A DNA stretch of 64,000 nucleotides from Fluviicola sp. (GTDB lineage: Bacteria; Bacteroidota; Bacteroidia; Flavobacteriales_D; Crocinitomicaceae): contig JARWZO010000019.1 of the NCBI GenBank assembly GCA_029866325.1, positions 434,001 to 498,000 of the forward strand, written 5' to 3'. The position numbers and the translations under genes were made by a program. Shown piece after piece: positions 4,712 to 34,663 of the stretch. Within the stretch, counting starts at the first letter, position 1; each line of letters opens with the position of its first letter. The notes beneath the pieces were generated by a model that made no database searches, had not been told where the DNA came from, and was given only the letters and a program-made list of their open reading frames with translations.

Positions 4712-6229
4712 TTAAAACCGGAAGTGAACTCCAAATTGCGGTGTGATGAAATAGCGCTTGCGATCCAATCCTTCATAAATCAACGCTTGCTTCATTTCCC
4801 AACCGGTGCTCACTCCTGCACTAAACATCCACTGATTCCAGGTATAAGTTGCGTGGAAACGACCCGTTAGATTCATACTGAAATTATTGACTGTTGGCGC
4901 AGGCATACCATTCAATTCACCTTGAGAAACCTTATAGAATTGGAATACTGCTCCTGCGTTGACCAACAAGCCCCATTTATCCGAAAAGGAAAAATGTTTG
5001 GTGAAATACAGTGGAATACTCATGGTTTGAATGCGATTCAATTGCGTAAAATTGGTTGAAAGCGTATCGTCAAAATAATAGATTGTGTCTTGATATCCGG
5101 TAATGGAATCAGGCATATTCGGATTTTCATAAAGTGGAATACTATCAAAGATCACAATTGCCGAATCTAAAATTTGCAGGTTTGTTAGTTTAAATGTTTC
5201 CTGACGTTGGTTAAACCCAAAACCGGTAGTCAATCCATAACCTGCAATAAGATTGCGATTCACTTCTGCTGAAAACTGAAACGATGGTTTTTCGGAAACG
5301 GATCTCAATTGGTCATTGCTTTTGGAGTTAATGCCAAATGACGGTCCTGCATAAACGGAAGCCGTCCAATTCGTATCACTTTTTGGTTTATCGTTCTTTC
5401 CGTTTTTATTTCCAGGCTTAACATCCTCGATATTAGTAGAATCGGGCGTTTGAGGAGTTGGCGACCCATTAGGTTTGCCCGAAATCGGATCAGTTTTTTC
5501 AGGTGAATTTGAACCATCTCCCGCACCTTCATTCCCCTTAGTCGGATCTGATTTCCCTGTTCCATTTTCAGATGAATTACCTTCTTTTATGGCAATACCT
5601 GAATTTTTCAAAGCAAGGTTGGTTAAATTCAAGGTAGACAGTGCATCAAAACTTAGTGTTCCTGAATTGCTTTTCTTACCTGATGATTTTTTACCTGATG
5701 GGTTCTTCCCTATAGTATTTTTCCGTTTCGGTAGGTTGGTTTTCGCCGAACGATTCTTTTGATTTCCGGTATTCGATGTCAATGACCTATTACCTTGACC
5801 ATCGTTCTTCCCTTTTGAAGAGGCTTGATTTCTAGCTGAATGATCCTGTTGTTTTGTTCCGGAAGTCGTTTCAGATGAGGTACTGTTCTTATCATCCGAT
5901 TGGCCGGAAGATGAAGTAGCTGTATGATGTGTTGAAGAATGATTGTTAGAATGAGTTGTTGTTGAAGCAGAAGTATTAGCTGGCGTTTCGGTTGATGCCA
6001 ACTGGTTTACCGGTGCAGTTGCACCTTGTTTTTCGGATGAACGGGCAAAAAAGAAAAGCAAAGACGATACTCCAAGGAATAACACCGTGCCTAAAATCCA
6101 CCAAATGCGTTTATTGGAAGCTCCACCGATTCTACTATCGATTGCTTCTTTTACCGCAGACGGAGGCGCTACTTCGAAATGATCAAACGAAGAGCGAAAT
6201 AAATCTTCTATGTTATTGTCCTCTTTCAT
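4712..6229 (-). CDS. Putative transenvelope anti-sigma factor: cytosolic N-terminus, one TM, S/T/N/K-rich linker, C-terminal outer-membrane beta-barrel
   Basis: TM WWILGTVLFLGVSSLLFFFA near residue 45; ~200-residue low-complexity linker; C-terminal porin-like strands ending FITPQFGVHFRF; ATGA overlap with the upstream ECF sigma gene. Confidence 0.75.
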   Translation of the reverse strand: MKEDNNIEDLFRSSFDHFEVAPPSAVKEAIDSRIGGASNKRIWWILGTVLFLGVSSLLFFFARSSEKQGATAPVNQLASTETPANTSASTTTHSNNHSSTHHTATSSSGQSDDKNSTSSETTSGTKQQDHSARNQASSKGKNDGQGNRSLTSNTGNQKNRSAKTNLPKRKNTIGKNPSGKKSSGKKSNSGTLSFDALSTLNLTNLALKNSGIAIKEGNSSENGTGKSDPTKGNEGAGDGSNSPEKTDPISGKPNGSPTPQTPDSTNIEDVKPGNKNGKNDKPKSDTNWTASVYAGPSFGINSKSNDQLRSVSEKPSFQFSAEVNRNLIAGYGLTTGFGFNQRQETFKLTNLQILDSAIVIFDSIPLYENPNMPDSITGYQDTIYYFDDTLSTNFTQLNRIQTMSIPLYFTKHFSFSDKWGLLVNAGAVFQFYKVSQGELNGMPAPTVNNFSMNLTGRFHATYTWNQWMFSAGVSTGWEMKQALIYEGLDRKRYFITPQFGVHFRF

Positions 6230-6765
6230 GCTCTTACTTTTTCGGCTTCCAACAATTGTTGGATCATTCGTTTTGCTTTAAAGAATTGTGATTTACTTGT
6301 GCTTTCACTGATTTCAAGGTGTTCGGCAATTTCTTTATGCGTCAAATTTTCTATTACAAACAAATTGAATACCGTTCTATACCCATCGGGCAATTTTGTC
6401 AAAACGGCCAGGAGCTGCTTGCGTAATAGCTCCTGATCTTCCGTTTCGATATTCATTTCGTGTTGCTGATCAAAGAACGAATCTTCTTCGTGCAACACAA
6501 ATTTGTAGTGCTGTTTAATGTAGGTCAACGCGCAATTGATTGTGATTGTTTTTATCCATGCTGCCAGCGGTTTGTCTAATGAATATTGACCACTATTTCT
6601 GTAAATGCGGATAAAAGCTTCTTGCAATACGTCTTGCGCATCATCCTGGCAACGTGTGTAACGAAGGCATACCCCGAACATGGCCGCCGAATAGGCAGCG
6701 TAAATAGCGTCGAAAGCTTTGCGATCGCCATTCTTAAATCGTTCCTCTATTTCCTTCGTTATCAC
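6226..6765 (-). CDS. ECF-family RNA polymerase sigma factor
   Basis: Sigma-70 r2/r4: YTRCQDDAQDVLQEAFIRIYRN, LPDGYRTVFNLFVIENLTHKEIAEHLEISESTSKSQFFKAKRMIQ. Confidence 0.93.
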   Translation of the reverse strand: MITKEIEERFKNGDRKAFDAIYAAYSAAMFGVCLRYTRCQDDAQDVLQEAFIRIYRNSGQYSLDKPLAAWIKTITINCALTYIKQHYKFVLHEEDSFFDQQHEMNIETEDQELLRKQLLAVLTKLPDGYRTVFNLFVIENLTHKEIAEHLEISESTSKSQFFKAKRMIQQLLEAEKVRA

Positions 6766-7127: not shown

Positions 7128-7226
7128 AACCCTTATTTTTTATTGCTACTAACTCAGTTACCTGAGCCAATTTCAAAAGGTTGCCTGATGATGAAAAAAG
7201 TTTGTTTAAAGGAGACGTAAACGGTC

Positions 7227-15556: not shown

Positions 15557-17536
15557 ATGGCAACCCACAAACAGAAAAAGAGCACTGCAAAACCGACATC
15601 CAAACCCAGCACTGTTGTTTCGATTCCACCATTATCAGAAACTGTTTTGGATAAACGGATTTTCTGGGTGTTGTGCACGATTGCTTTTATCTTGTTTTCG
15701 AACACGCTCACCCACGGATTCGTGCTCGATGATCAAGCCGTTATTGAACAAAACAAGTTTGTACAGGAAGGTTTTTCGGGAATTTCCAAGATCATGACAA
15801 CCTTCTATTGGGAAGGATATTGGGAATCAAATGGTGGTTTGTATCGTCCGCTATCATTGGTACTATTTGCTGTTGAATGGGGCATTTCACCCAACAACCC
15901 GTTTCTTCATCATTTCATCAATGTATTGCTTTACGCAATCACCATAGGTGCGTTGTACAAACTATTACGTCTGATTTTCAAGCAATATACACTTTGGATT
16001 CCTTGTTGTATTGCGCTGTTGTTTGCGGTTCACCCTATTCATACCGAAGTGGTGGCAAACATCAAAAGTCGTGATGAGATTTTGTGTTTTTTGTTTTTCG
16101 TGCTCACATTCCGGGTGGTGATTACCAGTGAATTGAAATTGTGGAAGCATCGTTTGATGGCTGCAGGATTGTTCTTGCTTTGTTTATTGTCGAAAGAAGC
16201 AGGTATTTTGTTTTTACCCGTTATGGGACTTTATTTCTTGTTGTTCCGTCAGCAAAAAGTGTTGCAAATTGCACGATTGTTTCTACCAATTGTGGCTATT
16301 TCGGTAGCCTGGTTGGCAGTTCATCAATGGATTATTCAATCGTCGGTTCATGAACGGATAACTTACACTTACCTCGATAATTCGGTAGTCGGTTGTCCTG
16401 ATTCGGCATCGCAAGTTGCTACAGGAATTGCCATTCTGGGCCGTTATTTACTGAAAGCGTTTGTTCCGGCAAACATGAGTTACGATTATTCCTACAACGA
16501 AATCCCATGTGAGAGCGTTGGTTCTCCGATTGTTTTACTAACGCTGGTTGTTTTGATTGGAATGGGCTATCTCATTTACCGCAACTGGAAAAAACACCCC
16601 GCAATTAGTTTCGGATTGTTGTATTTCCTGATCACCATTTCGTTGGTTACAAACGTGTTTACATTTATCGGCGCTACGATGGGAGATCGTTTGTTGTTTG
16701 CTCCGGTATTGGGAATTTGCATTGTTGTTGTGGTTGGTTTGTACCTGCTTTTCAAACAAACGGAAGCCAATGCTTCGCGCACTAGTGCTTTTTACGGCAT
16801 TGCATTTATCGCGTTTTTAGCTGGTATTTTTTCCTTTCAACGCAACAAAGATTGGGCTTCTAATGAAACATTGTTTGCCGCCGATGTTGCCAATGCTCCT
16901 AATAGCGCTCGTGTTCATTTTAATTACGGAGCTCTTTTAATGGCGCAATTGCCTGAAGATATCAACCTACAACAATCGCAATTACCTGAAATTGCGGATG
17001 CGTTTGAACGAGCCTTGGCGATTGATTCTAGTGATAGAGGATCACATGTGAATTTGGGTGTGTGTTACTATCGTTTGAAAGATTATCCGAAATCAATTGA
17101 CCATTCTAGAAAAGCACTGAAACTAAATCCGCAGGATGCTACCATTGCTGCAAATCTTGCCGATGCGTTTTTCAAGAACAATCAATTTGACAGCGCTGTG
17201 GTTCGTTACAAAATCCTCATTTCAACGAAACAAGCCACTGCAGGAAATTACAGTTTTATGGGAACGGCATTTTTCAACATGAAACAGTACGAAAAGGCAA
17301 TTCCTGTCTTCAAAAATGGATTGAAGCGTTACCCCAAAAACGAAGAGTTGTTGCTGAATTTGGGCAATTCTTTTGGTGCTTCGGGTCAATTTGACCAAGC
17401 AATAGTTACCTTTTTAGAACTACTCGCAATCAATCCGAACAACAAACAAGTGATGCAGTTTTTAGCCATGACCTACCAACGATTGGGTGATGGTGTCAAC
17501 GCCCAGAAATACGCAACCATGGCAACTACTCCTTAG
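15557..17536 (+). CDS. TMTC-like multi-TM protein with C-terminal TPR repeats
   Basis: ~10 TM helices with GFVLDD..GLYRPLSLVLFAVEW.., LLFAVHPIHTEVVANIKSRDEIL; TPR units AxNLADAFFKNNQFDSAVVRYK. Confidence 0.8.
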   Translation: MATHKQKKSTAKPTSKPSTVVSIPPLSETVLDKRIFWVLCTIAFILFSNTLTHGFVLDDQAVIEQNKFVQEGFSGISKIMTTFYWEGYWESNGGLYRPLSLVLFAVEWGISPNNPFLHHFINVLLYAITIGALYKLLRLIFKQYTLWIPCCIALLFAVHPIHTEVVANIKSRDEILCFLFFVLTFRVVITSELKLWKHRLMAAGLFLLCLLSKEAGILFLPVMGLYFLLFRQQKVLQIARLFLPIVAISVAWLAVHQWIIQSSVHERITYTYLDNSVVGCPDSASQVATGIAILGRYLLKAFVPANMSYDYSYNEIPCESVGSPIVLLTLVVLIGMGYLIYRNWKKHPAISFGLLYFLITISLVTNVFTFIGATMGDRLLFAPVLGICIVVVVGLYLLFKQTEANASRTSAFYGIAFIAFLAGIFSFQRNKDWASNETLFAADVANAPNSARVHFNYGALLMAQLPEDINLQQSQLPEIADAFERALAIDSSDRGSHVNLGVCYYRLKDYPKSIDHSRKALKLNPQDATIAANLADAFFKNNQFDSAVVRYKILISTKQATAGNYSFMGTAFFNMKQYEKAIPVFKNGLKRYPKNEELLLNLGNSFGASGQFDQAIVTFLELLAINPNNKQVMQFLAMTYQRLGDGVNAQKYATMATTP

Positions 17537-19044
17537 CGGATTTTGTTGGTTAAGAAATAATGAATTCCGGCATTTAACCCAAAGGAAACGCTATTGTGAA
17601 ACTCTTGTCCATCGATGGCTTTTGCGAGATTTGTTCTGCCATTGATGGAAGCTCCGACACTGAATCCGAGATTATTGACACGATACGTTAAGTCTGCCGC
17701 CCCGAAACCGTGCACTACAAAATCGCTTCGGTTGATTCTTGATATGTCATTTGACGAATAAGACAGATAATCTTTGGTCATAAATAACTGATTCAACCCA
17801 AAACCAAACGAGGTTGAAATCATCCACTGTTCATTAAAGACAAAATCGTATCCCGTGAAGAGGTTCAAGCTGAAACTGCGGTAATCAAAGTTGTATTCAC
17901 CGATTCTGGTTGTATCATTTTGGTAAATCAGGATTCCCACACCGTTGTCAATCCAATACTCTTGTGAATAATCGACAAATGCGTCCCAGCCACCTTGAAG
18001 ATAAGTTGCTCCAACCCCCAATTGCATGTTGTTTTTCAAGCGCTTCTGAAAACTAAACGTTGTTGTAAACTCGTTATTGACGGTTGGTCTCAAGATCACT
18101 TTATCACCGAAATAGTAATATGCTAATGCAGGAATGGAGTCTGTAATACCATCATTTTCATTTTCTATCAGTTCTGTTTTAAGCGGAACATACCCTAATC
18201 CGGCTTTAAGGCTGAATTTACTTTGTGGCCATACAACCGGTGGACGCGTTTTTACCCTACTCAATGTATTTCCGGAACTGTCGATTGCCGGTTCAACAAT
18301 TGTCTCTTCAACTTTTCCAACCGGTATTTCAGTTGATGCAAGTAAACTATCCGTTGAATTTGGCAACGATTGTACCGTGAGCATCGGAACAGATTTTTTG
18401 TTCTTGAGCGGTAATTCAGTCATGCTTTCAGTTAACACAGCTGAGCGAATAGGTGTTGCTTTTCGTTGTTTTGACTCTTTCGATAATCCGATGGGAGAAA
18501 ACGACTCTTGCTGGGCAATCAGCTCAGGTTTACCGGTCGAATTACCATATTGAATCATTTCTTGTTTCGGAACAAAAGTTTCTTTTTGTCGGGAAAGAAC
18601 AGGAGTATTGAAAGAAGATTTTACTTCATTAAACGACTGTGTGGAAGCGGGCAATTCTTCAACAGAAGTACCGGCAAGTTCTCCTTCACTAAGAATAGTC
18701 GAATCAATTAATGGAGATTCCCCTAGAAGTTGAAGTTCATCTTTCAATTCGGCAGAAGCAGCCAAAATAACCTTGTTGTTTGTTTCGACCGCAACATGAT
18801 CAGGCGCATAGACTATTGCTACACCTGTACCTGTCACCACAGTAGCAAGACCGAAATACATGGTGATTCCCCATTTGGCAAAGAAGCCTGTTTTAGCAAC
18901 AGTTGTTGCAGTTGTAACTGCCGTTTTTGCGGCGATTGCGGTCGCCAAAGCACCATAACTCAAATGAGAAGCATCGGGTTTGAAGTTCTCTAACCCGCTT
19001 TTAAACATCCCATCTATCTCATCATGCTCTTGCATAGCGCACAC
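17533..19044 (-). CDS. Putative transenvelope anti-sigma factor, second locus: N-terminal cytosolic part, one TM, linker, C-terminal beta-barrel
   Basis: MQEHDEIDGMFKSGLENFKPDASH..; TM FFAKWGITMYFGLATVVTGTGVAIVYA; C-terminal barrel-like strands KFSLKAGLGYVPL...VSFGLNAGIHYFLTNKIR; overlaps the ECF gene. Confidence 0.72.
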   Translation of the reverse strand: MCAMQEHDEIDGMFKSGLENFKPDASHLSYGALATAIAAKTAVTTATTVAKTGFFAKWGITMYFGLATVVTGTGVAIVYAPDHVAVETNNKVILAASAELKDELQLLGESPLIDSTILSEGELAGTSVEELPASTQSFNEVKSSFNTPVLSRQKETFVPKQEMIQYGNSTGKPELIAQQESFSPIGLSKESKQRKATPIRSAVLTESMTELPLKNKKSVPMLTVQSLPNSTDSLLASTEIPVGKVEETIVEPAIDSSGNTLSRVKTRPPVVWPQSKFSLKAGLGYVPLKTELIENENDGITDSIPALAYYYFGDKVILRPTVNNEFTTTFSFQKRLKNNMQLGVGATYLQGGWDAFVDYSQEYWIDNGVGILIYQNDTTRIGEYNFDYRSFSLNLFTGYDFVFNEQWMISTSFGFGLNQLFMTKDYLSYSSNDISRINRSDFVVHGFGAADLTYRVNNLGFSVGASINGRTNLAKAIDGQEFHNSVSFGLNAGIHYFLTNKIR

Positions 19045-19582
19045 TCATTTTTTGTTCCAATATTCCTTTAATCATTTTGCGTGCTTTCAGCAATTGTGAT
19101 CGCGACGTACTTTCTGTTATTTCCATATAATCCGCAATTTCCTGGTGTGTAAGACCATCTATTGCGTATAAGTTAAACACTGTTCGGTAACCGTTTGGCA
19201 GTTCATGAAGAATGGCGATCAAATCTTGTTGTGTAAATGTACCTTCTTCTTTTTCATCGTCAACCGGAGCATGTGCACTATCCAACTCTCGCTCATTTTC
19301 AATGAGTTTGAACCGATAATTTTTCCGTATATACATTAGTGCCGCATTAATCGCAATCCGTTTAATCCAGGGACCAATAGGTTTGCTTTCATCGTATTGT
19401 TCGTAGTTTGTGTAGGCACTAATAAAGGTTTCTTGTACCACATCATTCGCATCATCCTTGCAACGGAGATAGCGTAACGCAATACCATACACCATTGATT
19501 TGTGTGTATTGTATAACCGCTCGAAATTTTCCGGGCGTTTTTGCTCTATCGCTTTTTCTCTGCTATGTTTGTTTGTAAACAA
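19022..19582 (-). CDS. ECF-family RNA polymerase sigma factor
   Basis: LRCKDDANDVVQETFISAYTNYEQ; LPNGYRTVFNLYAIDGLTHQEIADYMEITESTSRSQLLKARKMIKG. Confidence 0.93.
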   Translation of the reverse strand: MFTNKHSREKAIEQKRPENFERLYNTHKSMVYGIALRYLRCKDDANDVVQETFISAYTNYEQYDESKPIGPWIKRIAINAALMYIRKNYRFKLIENERELDSAHAPVDDEKEEGTFTQQDLIAILHELPNGYRTVFNLYAIDGLTHQEIADYMEITESTSRSQLLKARKMIKGILEQKMSVRYARA

Positions 19583-32935: not shown

Positions 32936-34067
32936 GAAGATTATACCGGAATTACAGGACCCGTTTGCCTTTTACACCTTTTGGATATTCGCCGGGGTCG
33001 TTTTTCTGCAGCTACTTTATGTCATTTTGTTCTTCGGAAGACTGGCTTTTAAGAAAACTGCTCCACCCAATCCGCAATTGCCTCCGCTCTCGGTGGTGAT
33101 CGCCGCGCGCAATGAATCGGATAATTTGTTTGAAAACCTTCCGAAGATTCTGGCACAAGATTATCCGCAATTTGAAGTAGTTGTGGTAAATCATCAATCG
33201 ATAGACGATTCTCGTCACCTACTCAGTGCTCTTCAGCGCGATTACAAAAATCTGGTGGTGATGGAATTAGAGAAAAGCAAACACCTGTTAGCTAGCAAAA
33301 AACTACCACTCACTCTCGGAATCAAAAAAGCACAACACGAGCATTTGGTGCTTACTGATGCCGATTGCAGTCCTGCTAGTGACCAATGGTTGCGCCGAAT
33401 GGCAGAAAAATTTTCTGAGAAAAAAGAAATTGTGTTAGGTTACGGTCCTTACAAAACAGAACCCGGATTTCTGAACAAAATCATTCGCTTCGACACCACA
33501 ATGATTGCCGTGCATTATTTTAGTATGGCATTGATGCGCGCGCCTTACATGGGAGTCGGTCGAAATATGGCATACACAAAAACGGTTTTCAACTCAACCA
33601 ACGGGTTCAAATCGCACTACGCGGTTTCTTCCGGCGACGATGATTTATTTATTCAGGAAGCGGCAAAAAAACGGAATTACACCATTCAACTGACTTCGGA
33701 TAGCTATATGTACAGCGATGCCAAAACAACCTGGGAAACATTCGTCATGCAAAAGGCTCGCCACTACAGCACTTCGCCCCGATACAAGGTTTTCAAGAAG
33801 CTATTGTTAGGAATCTATCCGTTCACTATGTTATTACTAGTGCTTTCCTTTGTTATTTTGATGCTTCAACCGGAATGGAGACTACATGCTGGAATCGGTT
33901 TTGGACTGGTTTTTGTAATTAAGTGGTGGTTGTTGGGTAAATGTTTTCAACGTCTCAGATCGACAGGATTCATAGCTCTACTGCCATTTTTAGACTTGTT
34001 GTATGTGCTCATCACTCCGTTTTTTTATTATTCAACGCTTCAAAAAGGATCTTCGAAATGGAAGTAG
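32936..34067 (+). CDS. Membrane-associated glycosyltransferase family 2
   Basis: LSVVIAARNESDNLFENLPKILAQDYP..LTDADCSPAS..SGDDDLFIQEA; flanking TM helices; start inferred (ORF opens at 32886). Confidence 0.85.
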
Positions 34068-34663
34068 GTGAGCATTTATCCGATAAAGCAAAATTCGACC
34101 TTGTATTGGTTGATGCCGCTCGTAATGGCGATCAGGCGGCATTTGCCTCGCTGATGGAGCGTTATCGGGAGTCGATCTACTTCATGATGATGAAAATGGT
34201 GCGTAACTCAGACGACGCAGATGATTTGACCATTGAAGCTTTCGGAAAGGCGTTTAGTCGACTGGATCAATATTCCCCAAGTTTCGCTTTTAGTACATGG
34301 TTGTTTAAAATCGCATCGAATAACTGCATCGATTTTATCCGCAAAAAACGCATCAAACTCACTTCGATGGATACGGGTTACACCAACGAAGACGGTGAAA
34401 GTATTCGCATTGATGCCAAGTCTCAAACCCGCGACCCGGAAGAAACGATCATTCACAACCAGAAAGTGAAGCACATGCGTCAGCTGGTAAGCAAATTGAA
34501 ACCACGCTATCGTGAGTTGATTGAGAAACGGTATTTTGAAGAATTGAGTTACGAAGAAATTGCCGAAGAATTGAACCTTCCGCTTGGAACCGTAAAAGCG
34601 CAGTTGTTTCGCGCACGTGATTTCTTGGCACAGATGATGGAGCAAACGAAGGACGCCATTTAG
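34058..34663 (+). CDS. Sigma-70 family (ECF-type) RNA polymerase sigma factor, no adjacent anti-sigma candidate
   Basis: VRNSDDADDLTIEAFGKAFSRLDQYSPSFAFSTWLFKIASNNCIDFIRKKR; r4 ELSYEEIAEELNLPLGTVKAQLFRARDFL. Confidence 0.92.
   Translation: MEVGEHLSDKAKFDLVLVDAARNGDQAAFASLMERYRESIYFMMMKMVRNSDDADDLTIEAFGKAFSRLDQYSPSFAFSTWLFKIASNNCIDFIRKKRIKLTSMDTGYTNEDGESIRIDAKSQTRDPEETIIHNQKVKHMRQLVSKLKPRYRELIEKRYFEELSYEEIAEELNLPLGTVKAQLFRARDFLAQMMEQTKDAI

Follow-up and report, generated by a model that had tools for sequence, protein, structure and literature searches.

A Dma-type transenvelope anti-sigma factor predicted beside an ECF sigma gene of Fluviicola

The 505-aa protein encoded next to an ECF sigma gene in Fluviicola sp. 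is probably a dedicated transenvelope anti-sigma factor of that sigma factor, and was set beside Dma1 and Dma2 of Bacteroides thetaiotaomicron by its layout. This assignment is based on the covariation between the first helix of this partner protein and region sigma4 of the sigma factor, and on the recovery of the partner's N-terminus by a held-out profile. The initial annotation, in which one polypeptide spans both membranes and passes the state of the outer membrane to a sigma factor, was supported in outline, namely by the layout, a predicted contact, a predicted barrel and a linker of sufficient length. The design itself is already known, having been reported in Bacteroides and Phocaeicola; new here are the predicted docking residues, two predicted target promoters and the set of paralogues. 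The features located in the window (the whole stretch of 64,000 nucleotides that was analysed) are listed in Table 1.

Table 1. Predicted features of the sigma/partner locus and of a second pair, with positions in the window.
Feature	Position	Strand	Description
Dma-type partner, predicted transenvelope anti-sigma factor	4712..6229	(-)	505 aa; ATGA overlap with the sigma stop
C-terminal OmpA-type 8-stranded beta-barrel, residues 287-505	4715..5371	(-)	AlphaFold2, Foldseek; ends QFGVHFRF
Disordered periplasmic linker, residues 65-286	5372..6037	(-)	pLDDT about 30; length conserved, sequence not
Inner-membrane helix, residues 40-64	6038..6112	(-)	hydropathy 44-62; AlphaFold2 helix 40-64
N-terminal two-helix anti-sigma domain, residues 1-36	6122..6229	(-)	E8 lies in helix 1, I30 in helix 2
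ECF sigma factor gene	6226..6765	(-)	179 aa, GTG start; Pfam Sigma70_r2/r4_2; orthologues 54-75% identical
Putative lipoprotein, 111 aa	6792..7127	(-)	LLLQSC lipobox, Gly-rich DTTIWNGGGG-like repeats; situated between the promoter and the sigma gene
Predicted ECF promoter GGCAACCTTTTGAAATTGGCTCAGGTAACT of the operon	7156..7185	(-)	conserved upstream of orthologues; not found upstream of the L035 operon
Second sigma/partner pair	17533-19044 and 19022-19582	(-)	503-aa partner, 23-nt overlap, like layout

The coordinates, strand and lengths of the two genes all agreed with the description first given of them, including the ATGA shared by the sigma stop and the partner start (6226-6229, minus strand). 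The sigma factor was matched by Sigma70_r2 (E 5e-13) and Sigma70_r4_2 (E 3e-14) in Pfam. The sigma gene, the overlap and the partner gene were kept together at seven orthologous loci, and the closest named orthologous contig is that of a Fluviicola MAG (75% sigma identity). Given these seven loci and the 257 unique like pairs collected in this study, the arrangement is more than chance. Conservation of the partner was highest in residues 1-36 (42-61% identity among orthologues), with 22-26% in the barrel and 12-25% in the linker. With its clamp conserved and its barrel evolving fast, the partner would suit an input specific to the lineage and an output that stays fixed, and relaxed constraint may be an alternative source of this pattern. 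The putative lipoprotein is accessory, being present in only some of the orthologous operons and missing in most. It was ruled out as an obligatory co-sensor, with none lying between promoter and sigma gene in G003, G005, G006, G011 and G012.

A structural model of the partner was made by AlphaFold2 with six orthologues. It contained two short helices (7-16 and 24-34), a transmembrane helix (40-64) and a disordered stretch (64-284), and the short N-terminus with one transmembrane helix, as claimed earlier, was seen both in this model and in the hydropathy profile. The S/T/N/G/K-rich linker, previously put at about 200 residues, measures 222 residues with 63.5% S/T/N/G/K and is disordered. Its contour length is about 80 nm (0.36 nm per residue) and an end-to-end distance near 14 nm is expected for a disordered chain, so it can cross a periplasm, in agreement with the earlier estimate. 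Linker length was held at 198-242 residues in the seven orthologues despite the low sequence identity, as expected if the span matters.

Within residues 288-504 eight confident strands were modelled (pLDDT mostly 80-95, with a low-confidence loop at 358-385), and not a soluble periplasmic domain, the outcome against which the initial annotation had weighed its reading. Foldseek matched the barrel in the PDB to OmpA (9fzc, E 4e-8; 9fzd and 1qjp with a target-normalised TM-score of 0.77) and further to OmpX, NspA and Ail; the BFVD matches were likewise outer-membrane barrels. On the strength of the model and these matches the C-terminal domain is taken as an OmpA-type barrel of eight strands. 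The barrel part of the first description stands, whereas its porin-like character was ruled out by the strand number and the OmpA/OmpX-type matches. A Pfam barrel model was matched by the Fluviicola partner at E 5e-4, under the curated cut-off, and by five of the seven orthologues (best E 6e-7). The last eight residues of the partner, as well as the ends of most aligned orthologues, fit the BAM beta-signal consensus. No direct PDB sequence match was obtained for the whole partner or for its N-terminus, and the N-terminal region of about 36 aa had no significant Pfam or NCBIfam match.

The predicted contact between the two proteins was derived from covariation. Pairs were collected from relatives at the levels of genus, family, order and phylum; the partner gene overlapped the sigma gene in 187 of the 257 unique pairs, 80 of them exactly by ATGA. 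Mean-field DCA was performed on the concatenated sigma and partner alignment (Neff 178), giving 20,530 position pairs including those within sigma. E8 in partner helix 1 and K165 in the sigma4 helix ranked first overall and E8-F161 second, while G31-F18 ranked seventh. A contact between sigma and the N-terminus, on which the initial annotation had made its reading depend, is thus predicted by E8-K165 and E8-F161. Across the alignment the residues at K165 and E8 were mostly K-E or R-D. The top coupling of 2.77 compares with null maxima of 1.09 in global shuffles and 1.47 in shuffles within 15, 31 or 47 clades; shuffling within 68 clades, which left most pairings intact, gave 2.62. E8-K165 was still the top inter-protein pair when the genus was left out and when partners of at least 395 aa were used alone. 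It fell outside the top five for the 51 barrel-like partners alone, a subset that is underpowered at Neff 35. The coupling of helix 2 to sigma2 (I30-I52) was weaker than that of helix 1 to sigma4, and helix 2 most likely docks on sigma2.

By HMMER alignment K165 corresponds to RpoE R178 in 1or7, with the chain numbering taken as three above that of the protein, as deduced from the chain length of 194. In a DCA study of class I anti-sigma domains, the model pair of which was RpoE R178-RseA D11, a single residue of helix 1 was coupled to two residues of sigma4 (PMC7406223). Judged by alignment, the interface recovered independently here is of this same kind, an acidic residue of helix 1 meeting a basic residue of sigma4. 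Likeness to CnrY/CnrH lies in the use of two helices, of which the first binds sigma4 and the last sigma2, as described for the class II CnrY (PMC7406223). The Fluviicola domain differs from RseA and CnrY in its size of about 36 residues, in having no significant Pfam, NCBIfam or PDB sequence match and in its fusion to a barrel; the RseA-like ASDI, in contrast to these two helices, has about 100 aa, four helices and a recognisable profile.

A profile was also made from only 47 partners, each under 330 aa in length and none of them from the genus, and searched against the 335 ORFs of the own-genome loci. It retrieved the Fluviicola partner at E 1.2e-9, and every match with E <0.01 was a partner adjoining a sigma gene. 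Since a profile of short partners retrieves it, the N-terminus is common to anti-sigma candidates too short to hold such a linker and barrel.

Of the known systems, Dma1/Das1 and Dma2/Das2 of B. thetaiotaomicron each combine an ECF sigma gene with an adjacent partner whose domains reach from the outer membrane into the cytosol, and Dma proteins are described as Bacteroidota-restricted (PMC13088901). The Dma-like layout proposed for the Fluviicola protein was recovered in all its parts, an adjacent ECF sigma gene, an N-domain, one transmembrane helix, a long linker and a predicted barrel. A sigma factor of group ECF21 is one criterion of the Dma family; the matches of the Fluviicola sigma factor were to general ECF models. 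Three Dma proteins occur in B. thetaiotaomicron, compared with eight barrel-type pairs in the Fluviicola genome, a member of the Flavobacteriales. Deletion of Dma1 or Dma2 leads to sigma-dependent hypervesiculation, and Dma1 acts through NigD (PMC13088901). In Fluviicola a T9SS surface protein is predicted as the additional target, and the NigD / NigD_N family had no match in its genome, so the vesiculation link is not to be carried over. An hhalign comparison of whole proteins, in which the orthologue set was aligned to two partners from the Bacteroidales, was not significant, and the sigma factors were 33-38% identical to the Bacteroidales ones. When Bacteroidales N-domains were sought among 20 ORFs, L048 was found at E 0.003 and L037 was not found.

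A second likeness is to Phocaeicola vulgatus M0N98_03760/03761, where the gene after a sigma gene encodes an anti-sigma factor that is predicted to reach across the periplasm and to end in an outer-membrane barrel (PMC9308784). That sigma gene was induced 33-fold by an envelope-damaging toxin, and the output of the system is a longer O-antigen and toxin resistance (PMC9308784), which is not predicted for Fluviicola. The C-terminal domain of the Fluviicola partner shares the eight-stranded fold of OmpA and OmpX; unlike OmpA, its barrel is C-terminal on an inner-membrane-anchored protein and comes without the OmpA periplasmic domain.

In the mechanism proposed, the two-helix N-domain would clamp the sigma factor, helix 1 docking against the recognition helix of sigma4 and helix 2 most likely against sigma2. 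The partner would be anchored in the inner membrane by its single helix, the disordered linker, about 220 residues long, would cross the periplasm, and the predicted OmpA-type barrel would be inserted in the outer membrane while tethered. A signal at the barrel, or failed assembly of the barrel, could then remove the N-terminal clamp, with stepwise proteolysis as the probable route, and the freed sigma factor would read promoters of the form GGCAACCTTT-N13/14-GTAACT, upstream of its own operon and of a T9SS-secreted surface protein.

A long, disordered linker with so little sequence conservation would also suit a protein that spans both membranes only briefly, being cleaved in maturation into an inner-membrane anti-sigma factor and a separate OmpA-like barrel. 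Shorter partners with a like N-domain do exist (L043, L044 and L045), and next to L044 lies a separate gene whose product has an OMP-like end. Such cleavage is unlikely, however, as linker length is conserved among the orthologues and their linker alignment showed no conserved cleavage motif. The OmpA-type fold and the constant linker length would equally fit a barrel and linker acting mainly as a mechanical tether between the membranes, with the sigma coupling reporting only the integrity of the tether. Against this, Pfam detected no OmpA-type peptidoglycan-binding domain in the partner, the last strand of which is the end of the protein, and several paralogous sets have divergent C-termini, which suggest different inputs; hardly any probability was assigned to a mere tether. 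Covariation cannot give the sign of regulation, and some FecR-type proteins play activating roles, which would speak for a positive regulator or a FecR-like sigma-maturation factor in place of an inhibitor. This is considered very improbable, because the contact maps onto the inhibitory RseA D11-RpoE R178 interface, no FecR domain was matched in the partner by Pfam, and the P. vulgatus protein of related architecture acts as an inhibitor (PMC9308784).

For the transenvelope anti-sigma factor and its sigma factor, candidate targets were sought with the promoter element found upstream of the operon. The orthologues conserve this element, L031 having GAC in place of GGC and L036 a GTATTT that is weaker. 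A related pattern gave one match in the window against 0.05 expected. The strict pattern gave eight matches in 14 genomes of the genus against one in the control, six of them upstream of the sigma operon and one extra each in G000 and G003. This extra site lies 17-18 nt upstream of the ATG start of a gene for a 570-aa protein that carries a signal peptide and a T9SS type-A sorting domain; in the own genome (G000:C20:76242-76271, L369) it is the one further exact copy of the sigma operon promoter. The 570-aa protein is followed by one of 239 aa, the T9SS tail of which is similar. G008 carries its own GAC variant before both the operon and the orthologue of the 570-aa protein; the full site was missing at the target orthologues of the other genomes with readable upstream sequence. 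Looser patterns showed no enrichment. With up to three mismatches no further convincing site was found in the own genome, and a large regulon was rejected, that search having given the two exact sites and fewer sites than the reversed control. Two exact sites and no other convincing one predict autoregulation of the operon and control of one T9SS-secreted surface protein. This link is analogous to that in Flavobacterium psychrophilum, where an ECF-type promoter motif was found upstream of T9SS genes and of a sigma/anti-sigma pair (PMC9723704).

The pair is one of about ten paralogous sigma/partner pairs in the 4.68-Mb assembly, in which 31 Sigma70_r2 matches were counted. Eight pairs have a barrel-type partner of 404-505 aa, with weak support for some; the barrel of L079 had no Pfam match. 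For the second pair in the window the held-out profile found the N-domain at E 1.6e-4, and the barrel was matched weakly in Pfam (E 0.3). A third sigma gene of the window (33941-34663, plus strand, Sigma70_r2) had no detectable same-strand partner directly downstream. In two further pairs of the genome the N-domain is joined to another C-terminus, and one of these, L056, has CHU_C above the Pfam cut-off.

Other C-termini were also found in the wider collection. Among 90 representative partners Pfam matched CHU_C in 34, PKD_4 in 27, OMP_b-brl_2 in 22 and OMP_b-brl in 16 (E <=0.01). L056 (5221-6105, plus strand), L202 (333-1490, minus strand) and L040 (5545-6822, plus strand) are transmembrane anti-sigma candidates with an N-domain as in the Fluviicola partner and a C-terminus made of a PKD chain and/or a T9SS type-B sorting-like domain. 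This group matched CHU_C at E 2.6e-7 and TIGR04131 with 48.8 bits against a cut-off of 35 bits, and L202 scores above the cut-off of the NCBIfam model for the T9SS type-B sorting domain. It is possible that this type senses the state of the T9SS, and no description of such a sensor was found in the literature searched. A model of the Brumimicrobium type showed like helices and a transmembrane segment, a linker and then Ig/PKD-like domains, with PorU of P. gingivalis as best PDB match. In a sample of the phylum the sigma profile matched 73 of 74 genomes of the class and, with weaker scores, 51 of 223 outside it (E <=1e-30, tallied by hand).

The signalling design known experimentally from gut Bacteroides and Phocaeicola extends by these predictions to free-living Flavobacteriales. 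With a barrel in the outer membrane and a clamp in the cytoplasm, a signal at the cell surface could reach gene expression directly, and the proposed E8-K165 docking together with the two predicted promoters makes this outer-membrane-to-transcription question testable by point mutants and reporters. In a published survey class I anti-sigma domains adjoined only 6% of Bacteroidetes ECFs (PMC7406223), and the short shared N-domain is a candidate for part of the remaining partners. We propose tentatively, at somewhat less than an even chance, that this small two-helix module is a phylum-wide plug wiring envelope devices of the Bacteroidota (outer-membrane barrels, or PKD chains with a T9SS type-B sorting domain) to ECF sigma factors. 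If true, one mechanism would sense either the state of the outer membrane or T9SS traffic, and much of the shortage of known anti-sigma factors in Bacteroidota would be explained.

The N-domain motif of the Fluviicola partner was also seen in the large partners L049, L050 and L051 (889-1018 aa), which have a barrel-like C-end. The N-terminal anti-sigma motif seems to be duplicated in L066 (3570-4862, minus strand), L067 (5391-6713, plus strand), L274, L284 and L224, perhaps for multivalent or multi-sigma binding, with up to four matches of the motif profile in L224.
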